Shown one piece after another: positions 2,019 through 45,558 of a DNA stretch of 48,166 bases. Within the stretch, counting starts at the first letter, position 1; each line of letters begins with the position of its first letter. Source of the DNA: Terriglobales bacterium (GTDB lineage: Bacteria > Acidobacteriota > Terriglobia > Terriglobales > Acidobacteriaceae); the NCBI GenBank assembly GCA_025934735.1, contig JAICWP010000030.1:1-48166 (forward strand). The letters run 5' to 3'. The notes under the pieces were generated by a model. It made no database searches, was not told the DNA's origin, and saw nothing but the letters and a program-made list of their open reading frames with translations. Position numbers and translations under genes: made by a program.

Positions 2019-3075
2019 GGCTAAGTATCTCCCTGCAGAATTGGTCGAGCGGCTTATCTGGTATGGCGATTTCCAGGGACGGCTTGATGCTCCAGGTCTC
2101 CTTCAACTGTTTGTGATGCTCCTTTAGCGCCGCAATGGAGGCTTCCATCAGCCCGTTCTTGGGGCGAACCGGATTCTCAAAGGCATTTACCAACTGCAGT
2201 GGTTGGCCTTGCTCTTTCACAATGCCAAGCACATAGCCGGGTAACGTGTGGGCATTCATCGAGTTTTTTCGTGCGCCCGGAACCGCCAGAACTGCCGCGC
2301 GCATAAAGGTGTCTATCACCGTCTTGCGTTCCTCGGAGGACAACGCACCCAAGTGAGCGGCATCAGCCAAGAGATCGAGATTCAGAGCGACATAACGATA
2401 GTAGGTAGCCGAGGTGAACTCCAGCGTGCCAGTCATCCCCGCGCCAGCTTGTTCCTCTGGTTGGAGGTCATCCACTGCCGAGAAAAAATCAATGTCATTG
2501 TCGGCTTTATGGGTGGACAATGCATGGCTAAACAGCCCCGCCCCCTCCAAGGTCAGCGAGTGATCGCTGGCGACCATCCGCCCAAAGATGGCAATGTCGG
2601 CGGCATCTTTGAGCGCGGCCGACTTGCACGCTTTAGCGACACCGTTCTGCAACTCTTTCGGCTTGGGGTCCTTCTTTACAATCTGGGCCAGTTCTTTGGC
2701 AAGAGCATCCACCTCGGCCGGTGAGAGGAACATCAGAGTCTTAACTTTGAGTTCACCTTTTTTTTCTGCTGCCGGGTCCAAGGTAGCCAGATGGTCGCCC
2801 ACAGTCTTGGCGATCTCGGTGGTCCTTGCCGATGCCACACCGTGCTTCTTCAGCGCATCGGCCAACGGCTCGATAATCAGGCGGCTCCGGTTGCCGGCAA
2901 ATAGGTTTGGTGAGAGCTTTTGCGCTTGTTCGCGAATCGCTCGCTTCAGACACTGGCTGGAGATGCGGGCGCGAGTTGTGCCACCGAAAATAGCGGTTTT
3001 GGGTGCACCGACATCATCACGGTTTAAACACGAAACAGGGAATGACTGCAGGATATGCAGCTCTACAAGTTTCAT
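2011..3075 (-). CDS. cas7e: Cascade backbone subunit Cas7e (CasC)
   Basis: Cas7 forms the six-copy backbone that holds the crRNA spacer in Cascade. I start it at the ATG at 3075 (MKLVELHILQSFPVSCLNRD) because an AGGAG ribosome-binding site lies 7 nt upstream; an in-frame ATG at 3102 would only add a basic peptide overlapping the cas6e end. The 354 residues include the family segments VGAPKTAIFGG and RISSQCLKRAIR near the N-terminus and a C-terminal LPGYVLGIVKEQGQPLQLVNAFE. This is the only cas gene here with its own clear Shine-Dalgarno site separated from the gene upstream, fitting the need for excess Cas7 (inference). Confidence 0.95.
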   Translation of the reverse strand: MKLVELHILQSFPVSCLNRDDVGAPKTAIFGGTTRARISSQCLKRAIREQAQKLSPNLFAGNRSRLIIEPLADALKKHGVASARTTEIAKTVGDHLATLDPAAEKKGELKVKTLMFLSPAEVDALAKELAQIVKKDPKPKELQNGVAKACKSAALKDAADIAIFGRMVASDHSLTLEGAGLFSHALSTHKADNDIDFFSAVDDLQPEEQAGAGMTGTLEFTSATYYRYVALNLDLLADAAHLGALSSEERKTVIDTFMRAAVLAVPGARKNSMNAHTLPGYVLGIVKEQGQPLQLVNAFENPVRPKNGLMEASIAALKEHHKQLKETWSIKPSLEIAIPDKPLDQFCREILSHV

Positions 3076-3098
3076 GCATGCTCCTTTTTGTTTGTTCC

Positions 3099-3728
3099 TC
3101 ATGAAATTGGCGCAATCATCAGCAACCCGAAGCCGAATGCCTTTGCTGAGCCGATACCGCGCGTGAATGTTTGCTGAAATTTTGCCGCGTTGGTCACTGT
3201 CAACCCGCCCTGAAACTCTACCGCGCTGTGCAGCCCTGATATGCCATTTTTCTCAAAGTACTCGCGGCCACGCGAAAAGATACGCAGTCTTTCTTCATCT
3301 AGGGAAAACCCACCGTGCTCGCCTTTGCGGATAATCCAGGCAACCAGTTCATCCCGGGTGCGCAAAGGGATGCGCTTTCCGTTCTTCGTCGGACTGCCGT
3401 CGGGTTTCAGCCTGGTTACTTTCTTCGTCGGGTTTGCACAGAGCTGAAAAACATATTGGCGGCGGGTGAAATATGTATCGGGAATCGCTCTTGTTTTCCA
3501 GCTTTCTGGATCAGCCGGGCACCAGTCGGGCCGCACCGGCAGCACGGGAGAGACGATCAGCAGGCGAAAGCCCTCGCGGCATCGGTCGAGGCGGGTCAGA
3601 AAATCGCGTTGTTTACCGTCGTGTCCGGGAAAGGACTTCCAGACTGCCTGATGCCAGTCGTAACAATCTCGTAAGGGCAATCGTGCAGCGGTGGCAAAAT
3701 CTATGGTGACTTGGGTGAGATGTGTCAT
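3099..3728 (-). CDS. cas6e: crRNA-processing endoribonuclease Cas6e (CasE)
   Basis: Cas6e cuts the pre-crRNA at the 3-prime base of each repeat hairpin and stays bound to the 3-prime handle. The start is taken at the ATG at 3728 (MTHLTQVTIDF), which overlaps the cse2 stop by 4 nt. An upstream start at 3761 would run further into cse2. The 209-residue protein carries the early YDWHQAVWKSFPG segment, with H26 the likely general catalytic histidine, and the C-terminal glycine-rich loop GIGSAKAFGFGLL that binds the repeat stem. It lies between cse2 and cas7 rather than after cas5 as in E. coli. Confidence 0.94.
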   Translation of the reverse strand: MTHLTQVTIDFATAARLPLRDCYDWHQAVWKSFPGHDGKQRDFLTRLDRCREGFRLLIVSPVLPVRPDWCPADPESWKTRAIPDTYFTRRQYVFQLCANPTKKVTRLKPDGSPTKNGKRIPLRTRDELVAWIIRKGEHGGFSLDEERLRIFSRGREYFEKNGISGLHSAVEFQGGLTVTNAAKFQQTFTRGIGSAKAFGFGLLMIAPIS

Positions 3729-4207
3729 AGTGCGGCCACCGAATCCTCGACAACGCCCCAATATTCACGCGCCCAGCATGCTTTCACGTTATGGCTCCAG
3801 TAACAAAGATCGATGAATAACCGCTCGTAGTTGACCGGTATCGCTCTGGCCTTGGCAGCGAGGATAACTGGACGCAATCGCTCGCAAATCTCATGTCGGT
3901 CGCAGGAGAGCAATCGCCGGAACCGGCCATCGAAGCTGTTGTTCTCGGTGCTAAGGCGGCGGCAAGTCATTCCGAGACTACCGGTCTGGGTTTCGTCAGG
4001 ATGGTAAGCGAATAGGCCAGCGACTGTTTCCATCCGGCGATTGCCAATTCCTCCGACGTGCCCGAGCCACTGCCAAGCACGGGGCAATTTGGCCGGAGTC
4101 AGCGCGCAGCGCAGATCGGCCATTGCGCCCCGGTCGCTCTTGAGACGTCGCAGATAGGCCAGCAAGCGTACGGCGGCTTCCTGCGGATCTGGTCGATCGG
4201 CGCTCAT
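3725..4207 (-). CDS. cse2: Cascade small subunit Cse2 (CasB, Cas11)
   Basis: Cse2 dimers form the belly of type I-E Cascade and stabilise the target R-loop. The 160-residue, arginine-rich helical protein shows the family's early LRRLKSDRGAMADLRCALTP segment and the later NYERLFIDLCYW motif. It overlaps cas8e by 4 nt upstream and cas6e by 4 nt downstream, so translation of the three is coupled. Length and basic character are typical of the family. Confidence 0.92.
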   Translation of the reverse strand: MSADRPDPQEAAVRLLAYLRRLKSDRGAMADLRCALTPAKLPRAWQWLGHVGGIGNRRMETVAGLFAYHPDETQTGSLGMTCRRLSTENNSFDGRFRRLLSCDRHEICERLRPVILAAKARAIPVNYERLFIDLCYWSHNVKACWAREYWGVVEDSVAAL

Positions 4208-5754
4208 GTTTCAGCCACCTCTTCGTTTTCATCCTCAGCTTGTCCGGCCGGAACGGCGAATAATGCATTGAGGCCTAGCGCATACGCACGCATCTGGCGG
4301 GGTGTCTCGTGGGCGCAGGCGTGCTCATACGCGCGGCGGGCGGCTCTCCATACCGACTTGCCCCAGGCGGTGTTCTGCCACAAGTGTTTCAAGCCTAAGC
4401 TTGCGGGAGTAGCGGCGGCTTCTAGCAGGTACGGCACGCAAAGCTCCATTTCAGTCCAAAACTGTGCGGCGGCCTTCCCCTGGATTTGCTCCCGACGGCT
4501 CTTCATTTCGGGCCGGTCAAGATGGTCACCTAGTTCCTTGTGATAGACCGAGATGGCTCGCCTCACACGAAACTCCGTAGTCTCGGCCAGTCGCACACCG
4601 CGTTCGTAAGCCATCTGGCTTGTTTCCTCCAGCATTGCGGCTGGAACGTGGAACACGGACTCAACCGTGTCTACCGGTTTGGCTCGTTTCGCCACAAGGC
4701 CGCCCGTCCAAAGATCAAAAGCCGCCTCTCGGTCGGAGATGTTCTGCATCGCGGCAGGGCCGCCGGGCTTCTCGCCGACAGCTCTGACAGTCAACGAGTG
4801 TAGTTCACGCCACATGGCCTTTTCGAGGGATGCCGCCAACACAACACGCGTCGGTTGTCCGTTCTGCTGCCTAGTGACAATCGTAGCCGAGGGCTCGCGC
4901 CAACCATCGGCATCGGTCTCATACTCCAATCCATTCGCGAGAATGAGGCTCCTGCCATCTTCACTGAGCCAGATGGCGCGAGCCAGCGGAACAAGTCTTC
5001 CCACATAGGTTCGAGTTGAATTCTGCACCGATTCGGCATCATCCAGCGCCTGGGGCATCGATTCCCAGATCGGTCTGCCCCAGGAGTTAGCGCCTAAAAA
5101 GTTTTCGACCTGCTGTTTGGTGATGAGGTTTTTGTGGAGCGTGGCGAGCAGATTGTCGCCCCGGAGCAGCGCATGTAACATCCCGCCAGACAAACAAGGA
5201 GCATGCTCGCTCGACCCAGCTCCGAGTGTTTCCTTCCCATTCCACAATCCCACGCCAATGCGACCACTGGGCGAAAAGCACTGGAAAGTTATTAGCATTA
5301 ATGCGAGTTCGCCCGAGGCGAAGGCGCGTTCCGAGCCGCCCGAATTATCAAACAGTGTCGTATTGTTGCCCGTGGCCAACGCGATATCGAGCTTGCTTGT
5401 TGAGCTCCCTTCGTCGCCCTCTGCGTTCGGTTTGCTCGCACTTAGCTTGGCGACCTGCAAGAACCGCTGACCCCTACCGAACAACTCGAACGTGCGCTGC
5501 CAACGGGCCAAGTAATCAATGGCTGACGGCACTATGCGTTCCCGGCACACCTTCCAGTCATCATAATCAGGGGGGCCATCGAGTGCTGCCTGCCCGATGC
5601 AAATCAGCAGTCGCATCAGGGCGATGCGTTCATGCGGGCGGACCGCCAACTCGCGAACGTTCGCACCGTGCTCGAACGCCTCACGCAAACTGAGACTTCC
5701 CGGTTTGCCGTCATTCCAAATAACTGGTATCCACGCGTCAGTCGTAAGGTTCAT
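4204..5754 (-). CDS. cas8e: Cascade large subunit Cas8e (Cse1, CasA)
   Basis: Cas8e recognises the PAM, helps open target DNA and recruits Cas3. The start is taken at ATG 5754 because the protein then opens MNLTTDAWIPVIW, the usual first residues of the family; an ORF extension to 5805 lies wholly inside cas3. The 516 residues are normal for the subtype. The gene overlaps cas3 by 17 nt and cse2 by 4 nt. The C-terminus ends in an acidic tail (EDENEEVAET). Confidence 0.95.
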   Translation of the reverse strand: MNLTTDAWIPVIWNDGKPGSLSLREAFEHGANVRELAVRPHERIALMRLLICIGQAALDGPPDYDDWKVCRERIVPSAIDYLARWQRTFELFGRGQRFLQVAKLSASKPNAEGDEGSSTSKLDIALATGNNTTLFDNSGGSERAFASGELALMLITFQCFSPSGRIGVGLWNGKETLGAGSSEHAPCLSGGMLHALLRGDNLLATLHKNLITKQQVENFLGANSWGRPIWESMPQALDDAESVQNSTRTYVGRLVPLARAIWLSEDGRSLILANGLEYETDADGWREPSATIVTRQQNGQPTRVVLAASLEKAMWRELHSLTVRAVGEKPGGPAAMQNISDREAAFDLWTGGLVAKRAKPVDTVESVFHVPAAMLEETSQMAYERGVRLAETTEFRVRRAISVYHKELGDHLDRPEMKSRREQIQGKAAAQFWTEMELCVPYLLEAAATPASLGLKHLWQNTAWGKSVWRAARRAYEHACAHETPRQMRAYALGLNALFAVPAGQAEDENEEVAET

Positions 5755-35181: not shown

Positions 35182-35273
35182 CGTAGATACGACGGGTTTG
35201 AGGCGCAGGCTGTTGCCTGTATAAATAGGTTTGTGAGTTCGTGATCAAGAGCGCAACTAGCATCGAAGAGAAG

Positions 35274-35636
35274 ATGACTGCTCGCATCCTGCTGGTGGAC
35301 GATGAGCGATCTATCGTGATGACGCTCACCGCCATCCTGCAGAGGAACGGATTCCAGGTGACCAGTGCCGGCTCCGCGCGCGAAGCCAAAGAGAAGCTGG
35401 CGGGCAACAAGTTCGACCTGGTGATCACAGACCTCAAAATGGAAACGGAAGGCGCGGGGTTTGACGTAGTCAAGTCAGCCTTGCAACAACCGTATAAACC
35501 CGCCACGCTCTTGCTCACGGCCTATCCCGTTCCCCAGCAGGAGTGGGCGGCCCACGGCGCCGATGGCCTGCTGGAAAAACCTACAGAAATGTCAGCCCTG
35601 CTGGAAACGATTTCGCACTTGCTGTCCGCCAGCTGA
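35274..35636 (+). CDS. Stand-alone response regulator receiver protein
   Basis: A 120-residue CheY-like receiver without an output domain: acidic pair D9-D10 in LLVDDERS, phospho-acceptor D53 in LVITDLKM, T in LLLTAYP, and K in LLEKP. It may pass phosphate to a partner or act by protein binding. ATG 35274 (after GAAGAGAAG) is preferred; a GTG at 35241 is possible. No kinase adjoins it; the PAS sensor kinase at 38643 is the nearest. Confidence 0.88.
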   Translation: MTARILLVDDERSIVMTLTAILQRNGFQVTSAGSAREAKEKLAGNKFDLVITDLKMETEGAGFDVVKSALQQPYKPATLLLTAYPVPQQEWAAHGADGLLEKPTEMSALLETISHLLSAS

Positions 35637-35761: not shown

Positions 35762-35785
35762 CCAGACCCGAGGTGATCAACCGGC

Positions 35786-36361
35786 ATGGCACGCATCAGC
35801 TATTTGACTCCGGAAGAGATCTCCGATCCGCAAGCCCGGCAATGGCTCGAGGATTCCATTCGCGTGGGGCGGCCCGGGCCCGAGAACCAGGCCATTCGAG
35901 CCCACCAGCCTGATGTTATGCGCTCTTTCACTATGACCTTCGACATGCTGTTCAAGCGCGGCAAGGGAACCGTGGAGTGGGACTTGAAGGAGTTGCTGCG
36001 GGCTTACATCGCCCTCAGCATGTCGTGCAGTTATTGATCGCACCAGGGAATCGCGCAGGCTGCGCGATCCAAAGAAGACCGGATGTCGGAGGTAAAGCGC
36101 TACCAGGAGTCCGAACGCTTCACGCCGCGGGAAAAGCTGGCCCTGGCTTATGCCGATACCATCATCTGGAATCCCGAGCAGGCGGATGATGCCCTGTGGG
36201 AGCGGCTGCACGCCGAGTTCACCGAGCCGCAACTGGTGGAGATCGGCTACTGGATCGGTTTCATCTCCGGAGGGCAGCGCTGGCTGATGACCCTGAAGAC
36301 CAAAAAGGGTGAACTGGCGACCGTGCTGGCCGAAAAGCAAGCCGCAAAAGCGCAGCCGTGA
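35786..36361 (+). CDS. AhpD/carboxymuconolactone-decarboxylase-like selenoprotein (CxxU), TGA read as Sec
   Basis: Two ORFs (35786-36037 and one including 36083-36361) are in the same frame, split only by TGA at 36035-36037. Read through, they form a 191-residue protein with Sec84. Around the stop the chain reads LLRAYIALSMSC-SY-U-SHQGIAQAAR, where AhpD-like proteins have C-x-x-C followed by QG. Downstream, YQESERFTPREKLALAYAD and ALWERLHAEFTEPQLVEIGY match the rest of the family. U replaces the second redox cysteine, and a hairpin suited to a SECIS follows. Likely a thiol/selenol peroxidase or disulfide-reducing protein (inference). Stop overlaps the transporter start by 4 nt. GAGGTG lies before the ATG. 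Alternative: a nonsense-mutated pseudogene. Confidence 0.8.
36050..36068 (+). promoter_or_regulatory. Candidate bacterial SECIS element
   Basis: ATCGCGCA-GGC-TGCGCGAT forms a perfect 8-bp stem with a 3-nt loop, all within the coding region. The loop starts 21 nt after the TGA and contains G at its first two positions; both features fit the usual description of bacterial SECIS hairpins (loop 16-37 nt downstream, early G). Binding by SelB is not shown. Confidence 0.65.
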
Positions 36362-37710
36362 AACGGCGTCCCTGGTACACCGGCCTCTACGCCCAGACGA
36401 TGATCGGCATCGTTCTGGGCATCGCCGTCGGACATTTCTTCCCCAAAGCTGGCGTGGCCCTGAAGCCCCTGGGCGACGCCTTCATTTCCCTCATACAGAT
36501 GATGATCGGCCCTCTGATCTTCGGGATCCTGGTGCAGGGTATCGCTTCCATGACCGATATGAAGAAATTGGGGCGGCTGGGGCTCAAGACGCTTGCCTAC
36601 TTTGCGGCGGTTTCGGCCATTACGTTGATCATGGGCATGCTGGCGGCGCAGATTAGCCATGCCGGCAGCGGTTTGAGCCTTCTCACGGGCTCGCTCAGCG
36701 CGCACCAGGCGGCCCACTTTGCGGTCCATGCCGGGACTCCGGGTTTCGACAGCTGGCTGCTGGAACTCATTCCTCAAACTTTTGTCGGCGCCTTCGTGCA
36801 TGTGAGTGTCCTGCCCATAGTGCTGGTGGCGGTGCTGTGCGGGTTCGCCATGGCGCGCATGGGAGAGGCCGGCAAGCGCGCGGGAGAAGCGGTCGAGCTA
36901 GCCACCAAAGTATTTTTTGGCATCGTGCGCATCATTGTCCGGCTGGCGCCCATCGGGGCGTTCGGCGCCATGGCCTTCACGGTGGGGGCGTACGATCTGG
37001 CATCGCTCTCGAGCCTGGCCAAACTGGTAGTAGCGTTCTATGCGGTGGCCATCCTGTTCGTCGTGCTGGTTTTGGGAATCATCGCCCGGCTTTCGGGATT
37101 TTCTCTGTTCCGTTTTCTTGCTTACATTAAGGACGAATTGATGATCGTAGTGGGCACCAGTTCGTCGGAAACCGTGATTCCCGACATGATCCGCAAGTTG
37201 CGGAATCTGGGCTCGGCCGATTCTACGGTGGGCCTGGTGTTTCCCATGGGATACAGCTTCAACAATGCGGGCGCGAACATCTACATGACTCTCGCGGTGT
37301 TCTTCCTGGCTCAGGCCAATAGTGTTCACTTTACCTTCGGCCAGGAGATGCGCATCCTGCTGGTTTCTTTAGTGGCTTCGACCGGGGGCGCCGGTGTGCC
37401 CGGCGGGGTTTTCGTTAAAGTGGCGGCCATGCTCAGCGTGGTCCCACAGATTCCTCTGGCGTCACTGGCTCTGCTGCTGGGAGTAGACAAGCTGATGAGC
37501 GAGTGCCGCGCCCTGGCGAATGTGATTGGCAACGGGGTGGCAACCCTGGCGGTGAGCCGCTGGGAAGGCGAGGTGGATGCGCCCCAACTGCGCCGTGCTT
37601 TGCGCGGTGAGCCGAATCCAGAAGCTGGCGACCAGTTTTCACAACCTGCAACCACCCAGGTTCAGGAGCAGACTGTTATCGCTTCGCGGTCAACCCGAAG
37701 TTCTGGGTGA
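36358..37710 (+). CDS. Dicarboxylate/amino acid:cation symporter (DAACS family)
   Basis: Takes up C4-dicarboxylates or glutamate/aspartate with H+ or Na+ across the inner membrane. The 450-residue protein has about eight helices plus hairpins: IGPLIFGILVQGIAS, the serine-rich hairpin GTSSSETVIPDMI, the FPMGYSFNNAGANIYMT helix (family NLDG region), ASTGGAGVPGG, and DKLMSECRALANVIGNGVA, typical of DctA/GltP. Start GTG 36358 overlaps the selenoprotein stop, so the two are translationally coupled. Substrate not determined. Confidence 0.93.
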   Translation: MKRRPWYTGLYAQTMIGIVLGIAVGHFFPKAGVALKPLGDAFISLIQMMIGPLIFGILVQGIASMTDMKKLGRLGLKTLAYFAAVSAITLIMGMLAAQISHAGSGLSLLTGSLSAHQAAHFAVHAGTPGFDSWLLELIPQTFVGAFVHVSVLPIVLVAVLCGFAMARMGEAGKRAGEAVELATKVFFGIVRIIVRLAPIGAFGAMAFTVGAYDLASLSSLAKLVVAFYAVAILFVVLVLGIIARLSGFSLFRFLAYIKDELMIVVGTSSSETVIPDMIRKLRNLGSADSTVGLVFPMGYSFNNAGANIYMTLAVFFLAQANSVHFTFGQEMRILLVSLVASTGGAGVPGGVFVKVAAMLSVVPQIPLASLALLLGVDKLMSECRALANVIGNGVATLAVSRWEGEVDAPQLRRALRGEPNPEAGDQFSQPATTQVQEQTVIASRSTRSSG

Positions 37711-37734: not shown

Positions 37735-38511
37735 CTACTCCAGCAGGTCTGGTTGCTCGCGCGTAATCCGCGCCCATAACGGCTGGAATTGAAACCATCC
37801 TGCCTGGTGGTTGCCCAGCAATTCACGAGTGGCGCGGGCATGGGCGGGGTCAATTTTCACGGGCGTGCCGGCGGCTTCGGCCAGCAACTGCGAGTGACAG
37901 CTGCGCTCCATCGTAATAAACCACCAGGCCGCTTCCTCCACCGTCTGCCCCACCGTGAGCAAGCCGTGGTTGCGCAGGATCACCGCCTTGTAATTGCCCA
38001 GCGCCTGAGCGATGCGCTCGCCTTCGGAGGTTTCATAAACCACGCCGGTAAAGTCGGCGAACAGCCCGTGGTCCTCATAAAACGCGCAGGCGTCCTGAGT
38101 GAGCGGCTCGAGCAGGCGGCCCAGGGTGGACCAGGTCCTGCCGTAGAGAGAATGGGAATGCGCCGCCGCCACCACATCTGGCCGGGCGGCATGCACACGC
38201 GAGTGAATGGCAAACGCGGCCGCGTTCACGGAATACTTGCCCTCAACCACCTCGCCATGGTGGTTGACCAGGATCAGGTCGGAGGCGCGAATCTGCCCGA
38301 AGTGAACGCCGAAGGGATTCACCCAGAAGTGGTCGAGGCGCTCCGGATCGCGCGCGGTAATGTGTCCGGCCACGCCTTCGTCGAATCCGTAGGCGGCGAA
38401 CAGGCGGAAGGCCGCGGCCAGGCGCTGCTTGCGGTGGCGCCGCTCCTCTTCTGCATTTGCAAAGGCGGGCTGCTGGGGCAGGCGAAACACATCGGCAGGG
38501 GCCGTGGCCAT
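37735..38511 (-). CDS. Class II aldolase/adducin family protein
   Basis: A 258-residue zinc-dependent aldolase-fold protein: GVAGHITARDP near the N-terminus, the metal-binding AAAHSHSLYGRTWSTLG, and AVILRNHGLLTVGQTVEEA with the third metal histidine. Members act on sugar phosphates such as fuculose- or ribulose-phosphate, but this branch (with NPFGVHFGQIRASDLILV) has no assigned substrate. AGGA lies 5 nt before ATG 38511. It is convergent with the transporter gene. Confidence 0.9.
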   Translation of the reverse strand: MATAPADVFRLPQQPAFANAEEERRHRKQRLAAAFRLFAAYGFDEGVAGHITARDPERLDHFWVNPFGVHFGQIRASDLILVNHHGEVVEGKYSVNAAAFAIHSRVHAARPDVVAAAHSHSLYGRTWSTLGRLLEPLTQDACAFYEDHGLFADFTGVVYETSEGERIAQALGNYKAVILRNHGLLTVGQTVEEAAWWFITMERSCHSQLLAEAAGTPVKIDPAHARATRELLGNHQAGWFQFQPLWARITREQPDLLE

Positions 38512-45067: not shown

Positions 45068-45558
45068 CTGAAGACGAACGGCAGTGGCTCGCTGAGTCTC
45101 GGCGGGCCGGTACGCACTCAGTTGCCGACGATGCTGCCGCCCAGCGCAACCTGCAGGAGCGCGGGCGAGTGGTCATGAATTCCATGGCAGGCCCGCGTGA
45201 TTGGCAGTTCGGCCCGGACCCACTGATTGAAAGTGAAAGGACGCGCCGCATGTTCGACATCAATAACCCGCCCAAACAGGTGACTGATACGGCTGGCCTG
45301 CGCACTGACGGCGGATTTCCGCGACTTGTTTACCACGAAGATGGCCGCTTTCAGCCCGTTGCCAATCAGGCAGAGCTAACCCAGGCGCGCGCTGATGGTT
45401 TTGGCCTAGAGCCGTTCCCGCAGTTCGATTATTCGCACTACCACCAGCTGACAGAACGGATTGCCGTGGCTTCGACCCACGAGCGGGCCCACTACGAGCG
45501 TCACCTGGCAGGCGACAGTCGCCGCCTTGTCAATTTCGTTAATCAGGAAAGGAAATAA
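45064..45558 (+). CDS. Hypothetical phage protein, 164 residues
   Basis: Unrecognised, polar protein beginning MTEDERQWLAESRRAGTHSV, rich in Arg, Asp and aromatic residues; it includes FPRLVYHEDGRFQPVANQAE and a His-rich DYSHYHQLTER segment. No membrane segment. It is coupled to the gene before it by ATGA and separated by 2 nt from the next one, before which AGGAAAGG serves as a ribosome-binding site. Confidence 0.6.
   Translation: MTEDERQWLAESRRAGTHSVADDAAAQRNLQERGRVVMNSMAGPRDWQFGPDPLIESERTRRMFDINNPPKQVTDTAGLRTDGGFPRLVYHEDGRFQPVANQAELTQARADGFGLEPFPQFDYSHYHQLTERIAVASTHERAHYERHLAGDSRRLVNFVNQERK

Follow-up and report, generated by a model that had tools for sequence, protein, structure and literature searches.

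A probable AhpD-like selenoprotein lacking the catalytic histidine in Acidobacteriota and Burkholderiales

The window (the whole stretch of DNA analysed here, 48,166 nucleotides of contig JAICWP010000030.1 from the Terriglobales assembly GCA_025934735.1) contains a gene that starts with ATG at 35786, runs through a single internal TGA (36035-36037) and ends in the same frame with a terminal TGA at 36359-36361 (Table 1). The preliminary description had placed the internal TGA at the second position of a CxxC-type motif in a 191-codon frame, with family-like sequence continuing in the same frame beyond it, and both points were borne out: the motif reads C81-S-Y-U84, and the 3´ part is conserved. 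In comparisons with four close homologues of 76-86% identity, the sequence 3´ of the TGA showed Ka values of 0.11-0.21 against Ks values of 0.64-0.89, thus it is under purifying selection. For the part before the TGA, Ka was 0.08-0.12 and Ks ranged from 0.98 to saturated; a lower Ks after the TGA than before it would be expected of a stretch that is constrained as RNA.

Table 1. Positions of the gene, its motifs and its downstream neighbour in the window.
Feature	Position	Strand	Basis
Probable selenoprotein gene, AhpD-like fold, 191 residues	35786..36361	+	homologues, predicted fold
Shine-Dalgarno-like GAGGTGA	35770-35776	+	5´ of the selenoprotein gene
In-frame TGA, probable selenocysteine, residue 84	36035..36037	+	TGA in 20/20 clade A genes versus Cys in 24/24 clade C genes
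CxxU redox motif C81-S-Y-U84	36026..36037	+	frame translation, alignment
Codon of E69, counterpart of the AhpD proton-relay Glu	35990..35992	+	invariant in 86/86; relay according to the accessible text of PMC3141380
Codon of G88, place of the catalytic His in AhpD-type enzymes	36047..36049	+	alignment
Probable bacterial SECIS hairpin, 8-bp stem, GGC loop	36050..36068	+	fixed register, covariation, single-sequence fold
DctA-like sodium:dicarboxylate symporter gene	36358..37710	+	PF00375, 310.5 bits

Codon 84 was compared in 86 aligned homologues. These comprise the 48 places found in a Burkholderiales sample (for three of which the identical genes L011, L013 and L014 were used), homologues from GTDB contigs and from class and phylum samples, 30 of the far more numerous places in 100 relatives (less one repeat) and three further matches in the window's own genome; the repeats L024, L058, L066, L068 and L074 were excluded. 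TGA is present at this codon in 48 homologues, Cys (TGC or TGT) in 37 and Phe (TTT) in one. An alignment looking for Cys at residue 84 had been proposed as a check, and the position is indeed Cys or TGA in 85 of the 86 homologues. Together with the conserved downstream part, this is a different picture from the truncated homologues, unrelated codons or degenerate 3´ part that had been named as evidence against a selenoprotein.

Of the 86 homologues, 56 fall into several clades, here called A to E. All 20 members of clade A that we found, which come from Acidobacteriota and Burkholderiales and include the window's gene, carry the TGA, whereas all 24 members of the sister clade C carry Cys. In a quick tree with long branches, drawn with midpoint rooting, the 56 rows of clade A and its sister clades form one side of a branch with an SH-aLRT support of 96. 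Clade A itself (20 rows) is supported with 92, clade A together with seven clade B rows (27) with 97 and the same group with G547b added (28) with 81, all of them of the Sec type, while the support for clade C is 98. Several arrangements of related genes were seen besides. In L094, a Cys-type gene (2661-3167) adjoins a Sec-type gene (3315-3863), possibly reflecting a heteromer or a duplication, and in L106 a clade D TGA gene (4001-4510) is followed by a paralogue (4615-5130) in which Asp and Phe replace Cys and Sec. The window's own genome contains a second AhpD-like gene (G000:C9:54996-55472, equivalent to L112:2497-2973), in which TGA occupies the CxxU position and a SECIS-like stem is present and which keeps the usual His and is convergent with selB, and a third AhpD-like match with a TGA at CxxU and a matching stem (G000:C46:88313-88612, L113). 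Of the 100 relatives, the own genome counted, 38 have one or more AhpD-like matches that contain an internal TGA, its position being checked just in the aligned matches.

Six close homologues (58-85% identity) were identified in the GTDB r220 contigs, all with TGA at codon 84. We furthermore searched three genome samples, drawn from the class (399 genomes), the phylum (396) and the order to which the Burkholderiales relative belongs (399). Six genomes matched in the class sample at E 1e-30: besides the own genome, four have TGA, L009 and L010 among them, and the sixth has Cys. At 1e-18, the phylum sample gave two matches, the own genome and a Cys-type one, and the Burkholderiales sample yielded 26 genomes with 48 places, some of the Sec type and others of the Cys type. 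Among the sampled Acidobacteriota the gene is thus rare, and it is shared with a second phylum, which suggests transfer. Viral contigs contained no relative of the selenoprotein gene, and relatives were found in 15 plasmid records, every one of them below 60% identity.

Downstream of the TGA, the stem arms AUCGCGCA (36050-36057) and UGCGCGAU (36061-36068) enclose the loop GGC. The perfect 8-bp stem and the loop start 21 nucleotides past the TGA are exactly as first described. Among the 1287 TGA triplets that the two strands of the window contain, only that at 36035 combines seven Watson-Crick pairs with a G in the loop at this register. Another TGA, at 45532 on the minus strand, has a 7-bp stem at the SECIS register, made up of six pairs and one G-U, and a loop G as well. 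Folding the hairpin stretch singly gave a z value of -1.14, with 31 of 200 shuffled sequences equally stable, and a search with Rfam over 35900-36300 returned no match at E 1. The proof for the SECIS element is a comparative one. Here, the proposed fit to a bacterial SECIS held up well: at the fixed distance, six to seven pairs of the 7-bp stem are formed in 47 of the 48 TGA genes versus 2 of the 37 Cys genes, and compensatory changes are present, with the fifth pair being G-C, C-G, T-A or A-T among the homologues. The one exceptional TGA gene, L046, forms just two of seven pairs at the fixed register. The loop position is a G in 48 of 48 TGA genes. Many rows are close kin, with 34 distinct stem stretches in the 48 TGA genes and 36 in the 37 Cys genes. 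Pairing reaches 95% of the cells in the 34 distinct stem sequences; in 2000 shuffles it averages 71% and never exceeds 77%. This control ignores kinship, and the Cys genes serve as the better one. When the helix as a whole or its 3´ arm is displaced by 1 to 6 bases, pairing drops to 26-52%.

The suggested search for selA, selB, selC and selD found all four genes in the window's genome (4.94 Mb, 99.8% complete). The tRNA-Sec has the anticodon TCA and scored 70.6 bits, SelB (C9:55610-57481) 351.5 bits, SelA 554.4 bits and SelD 365.9 bits. The selD gene of this genome (G000:C5:142434-143372, L054) itself has an in-frame TGA near its start; Sec-containing SelD proteins are already known. Of 21 genomes that carry TGA genes of clade A or B, 20 have SelB above the cut-off, the exception being G803, which has TGA genes of both clades. 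No SelB above the cut-off was found in the clade D TGA genomes G457 (the genome of L106) and G499, while the third one, G768, has SelB. SelB above the cut-off is also present in 7 of 11 genomes in which the Cys type alone was found; by itself SelB therefore discriminates little, though it is needed for the Sec reading. Among the 38 relatives with a TGA homologue, a tRNA-Sec of at least about 58 bits was detected in 32, versus 36 of the 62 without one (Fisher p 0.008), where the 38 genomes are those with a match holding a TGA, its position checked only in the aligned ones. The limit of about 58 bits leaves out six genomes with matches of 49-54 bits alone, and applying the Rfam cut-off itself changes the count to 34 of 38. 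Of the six TGA-bearing relatives in which no tRNA-Sec was detected at this limit, four have SelB above the cut-off, and the other two, which are 73% and 54% complete, do not.

The comparative data have to be set against the simpler ways to read a TGA in a gene. If the TGA were a plain nonsense codon, resulting from a pseudogene or a sequencing error, the modest fold of the single sequence would be no surprise, but all 20 clade A genes, from two phyla, carry the TGA at this very codon, the part behind it is under purifying selection and the SECIS stem covaries, making this explanation highly improbable. The UGA could in principle also be read as a residue other than Sec, by a Trp code or by plain readthrough. 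This would be very surprising as well, since 37 of the 38 homologues without TGA have Cys at the position, the genome encodes a tRNA-Sec with the anticodon TCA, the gene uses TGA as its own terminal stop and the stem accompanies TGA and not Cys. Judged from these sequence comparisons, 35786-36361 very probably encodes a selenoprotein with Sec at residue 84. SelB would bind the hairpin, which starts 12 nucleotides 3´ of the in-frame UGA, and thereby bring the Sec-tRNA (anticodon TCA) to this codon, and Sec would be inserted at residue 84, the reactive position of the CxxU motif in an all-helical fold of the AhpD type.

The assignment to the AhpD/CMD family, also made in the preliminary description, stands as far as the predicted fold is concerned, whereas the protein stays below the cut-offs of the AhpD/CMD models that it matches and is devoid of the catalytic His at +4. 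It scored 20.3 bits with PF02627 (CMD; gathering cut-off 23) and 36 bits with TIGR01926 (cut-off 81.8), and its best NCBIfam match was NF053654 (GroundWater_YciW) with 44.6 bits (cut-off 310), which was also the best NCBIfam match for 9 of 10 relatives scanned. No match to NF041047, NF041238 or NF041537 was found for the window protein at E 1, a search in which the HMMER filters drop many weak matches. Of the 20 clade A members two were scanned, the window protein and L011, and both stay below every Pfam and NCBIfam cut-off, L011 scoring 17.2 bits with PF02627 (cut-off 23). This model is passed by L094 (clade B´, 26.4 bits), L106 (clade D, 30.2 bits) and the L112 paralogue (56.7 bits). None of the ten relatives, which cover all clades, reaches the cut-off of a full-length NCBIfam family, and the two His-bearing paralogues from the own genome pass the AhpD core model TIGR00778 with 36.3 and 42.1 bits (cut-off 27.8). 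The AlphaFold2 model of the protein (pLDDT 90, pTM 0.82) shows an all-helical AhpD fold. It matched 6k40 (Z 18.3, 171 residues, 2.3 A), with Z values of 18.1 for 2oyo, 17.8 for 2prr and 15.8 for the debrominase Bmp8; Sestrin-2 entries gave 12.2 and 10.3 and carboxymuconolactone decarboxylase 9.4. By this model, the protein is predicted to have an AhpD-like fold.

According to the accessible text of PMC3141380, the relay of AhpD-like enzymes consists of Glu, Cys, Tyr or His, Cys and a His at +4 from the second Cys, with Cys48, Cys51 and His55 being invariant and the most essential residues. In the window protein, the counterparts E69, C81, Y83 and U84 are present but the +4 His is absent. E69 is also invariant in separate alignments of 35 and 36 sequences. 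The loss of the His is a feature of the whole branch: the residue is found in 0 of 56 proteins from clade A and its sister clades versus 30 of 30 other aligned homologues. Instead, all 20 clade A proteins have Gly at +4 and all 8 of clade B either Asn or Arg; Arg occupies the position in all 24 proteins of clade C, all 3 of clade D and the single clade E protein. Gln87 is fixed in the clade, as are RAH (38-40) in clades A, B and C and GQRW (163-166) in clades A and B.

The gene directly 3´ of the selenoprotein gene encodes a DctA-like symporter in five of five Acidobacteriota loci, the other four symporters being 60-72% identical to that of the window. Start and stop codon overlap in the window (GTGA), and spacing ranges from this 4-nucleotide overlap to a 3-nucleotide gap in L010, as calculated from stop positions and offsets. 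The window's symporter scored 504.5 bits on the DctA subfamily model and is thus just below the cut-off of 513, which the L009 copy reaches with 520.6. From this arrangement we infer an operon and a link to carboxylate uptake, the symporter probably being co-transcribed with the selenoprotein gene. A symporter homologue was not found in the examined flanks of the 15 Burkholderiales clade A loci. Upstream in the window lies a response-regulator gene (35241-35636), for which no homologue was found in the examined flanks of the four other Acidobacteriota loci and which was therefore set aside. Past the symporter, a class II aldolase gene (PF00596) is located at 37735-38511 on the minus strand, and weak relatives of it (26-28% identical) occur near five of eight clade B selenoprotein genes. 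Homologues of a TctC-type receptor (PF03401) are present in 13 of 15 Burkholderiales clade A flanks at distances from less than 0.1 kb to 4 kb; as such genes are very numerous in Burkholderiales, no weight was given to them. Mutase, B12-binding, carboxylase and HMGL-like neighbours were seen in G078 and G280 only, and these proteins are 95-98% identical between both loci.

Our functional proposal draws on the missing and the conserved residues and on one neighbouring gene. With the +4 His replaced by Gly and Gln87, RAH and GQRW fixed, the balance tips towards a reaction that differs from that of AhpD. The chances seem about even that the enzyme catalyses a selenol-dependent reduction unlike the peroxidase/adaptor reaction of AhpD, possibly with a substrate connected to the uptake of carboxylates by the neighbouring symporter. 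In such a reaction, U84 would be the nucleophile that attacks the substrate and C81 the resolving thiol, giving a selenenyl-sulfide that a thiol reductant or thiol system would recycle, and E69 and Y83 may tune the active site. Going further, we tentatively consider that the proteins could form a distinct class of His-less AhpD-fold selenoenzymes in Acidobacteriota and Burkholderiales, carrying out a non-peroxide reduction and having the DctA-like symporter as partner in Acidobacteriota; equally tentatively, one example of such chemistry might be that a leaving group is cleaved reductively from an organic acid taken up by the cell.

Two other functions have to be weighed, both of which concern the function alone. 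It is possible, though less likely than not, that the protein is an ordinary selenol peroxidase or adaptor of the AhpD type, in which the more acidic selenol and Gln87 offset the lost His. This explanation shares the selenoprotein reading, the predicted fold is the same and the positions of Glu, Cys, Tyr and U are retained; moreover, Sec commonly raises the rates of peroxidases. Yet the His is one of the most essential residues of the family (PMC3141380, accessible text), and it is missing in 24 of 24 clade C proteins that all have Cys, thus Sec is not the reason why the His is dispensable there. A dehalogenase-like or other reductive lyase activity resembling that of Bmp8, a member of the CMD family, is unlikely. 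Bmp8 belongs to the relatives of solved structure (profile E 4.3e-19, in addition to the structural match), its motif is CMYCKSHF by alignment, with His at +3 and Phe at +4 and thus without a +4 His, and it can remove bromine according to the accessible part of PMC7918430. The identity is just 18%, however, the window protein has Gln at +3 and not His, and no halogen-related gene is present among the few neighbours typed. As a precedent, Bmp8, which can remove bromine and by alignment has no +4 His, shows that a CMD fold may support other reductive chemistry.

AhpD-like and CMD-like selenoproteins with a CxxU motif have been on record since 2005 (PMC1088965, PMC1794560, PMC2398784, PMC9312934, PMC13188914, as far as their accessible texts go), and the kind is thus already known, the His-less branch being a variant of it. 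The statement in the preliminary description that such proteins are rarely reported has to be corrected, since the accessible texts list 27 in the Sargasso Sea set (PMC1088965) and 299 and 70 in the GOS set (PMC2398784). A 2026 review, in its accessible part, gives five entries of the AhpD/CMD type (NF041047, TIGR01926, PF02627, NF041238 and NF041537). For Acidobacteria, three families with four selenoproteins (PMC1794560) and, in Occallatibacter riparius, three known selenoprotein genes (PMC12013277) have been reported; in the accessible texts they are counted without family names, so that a relative of the gene may have been recorded earlier. A His-less AhpD selenoprotein was not seen in the titles and abstract openings of the open-licence literature on AhpD/CMD or Acidobacteria selenoproteins. 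With the known AhpD-like CxxU selenoproteins (COG2128/YciW, TIGR01926), the window protein has in common the predicted fold, the CxxU motif with Sec at the second position, the downstream SECIS and the existence of Cys homologues; it differs in its low TIGR01926 score, the lack of the +4 His and a clade of its own with RAH and GQRW. NF053654, a YciW-related (seleno)protein family, provides the best NCBIfam match but has a cut-off far above the score of the window protein. M. tuberculosis AhpD and P. aeruginosa PA0269 have the same Glu and CxYC/U residues (with Tyr in PA0269 and His132 in AhpD), whereas their essential His55 and His137 are missing here, as far as the accessible descriptions show. 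Bmp8 (6ohi, 6ohj) shares the CMD/AhpD fold, the CxYC motif and the lack of the +4 His by alignment; unlike the window protein it has Cys in place of Sec, and it belongs to a bromopyrrole pathway (PMC7918430, accessible part).

Our analysis adds a well-supported branch of selenoproteins, of which both members scanned score below the curated models, so that annotation may split or miss such genes. The branch poses the question of how an AhpD fold uses a selenol without the catalytic histidine. The Cys proteins of clade C and the Sec clade offer a comparison of Sec and Cys within one scaffold, and the genome G547 has a Cys-type gene next to its Sec-type sister.
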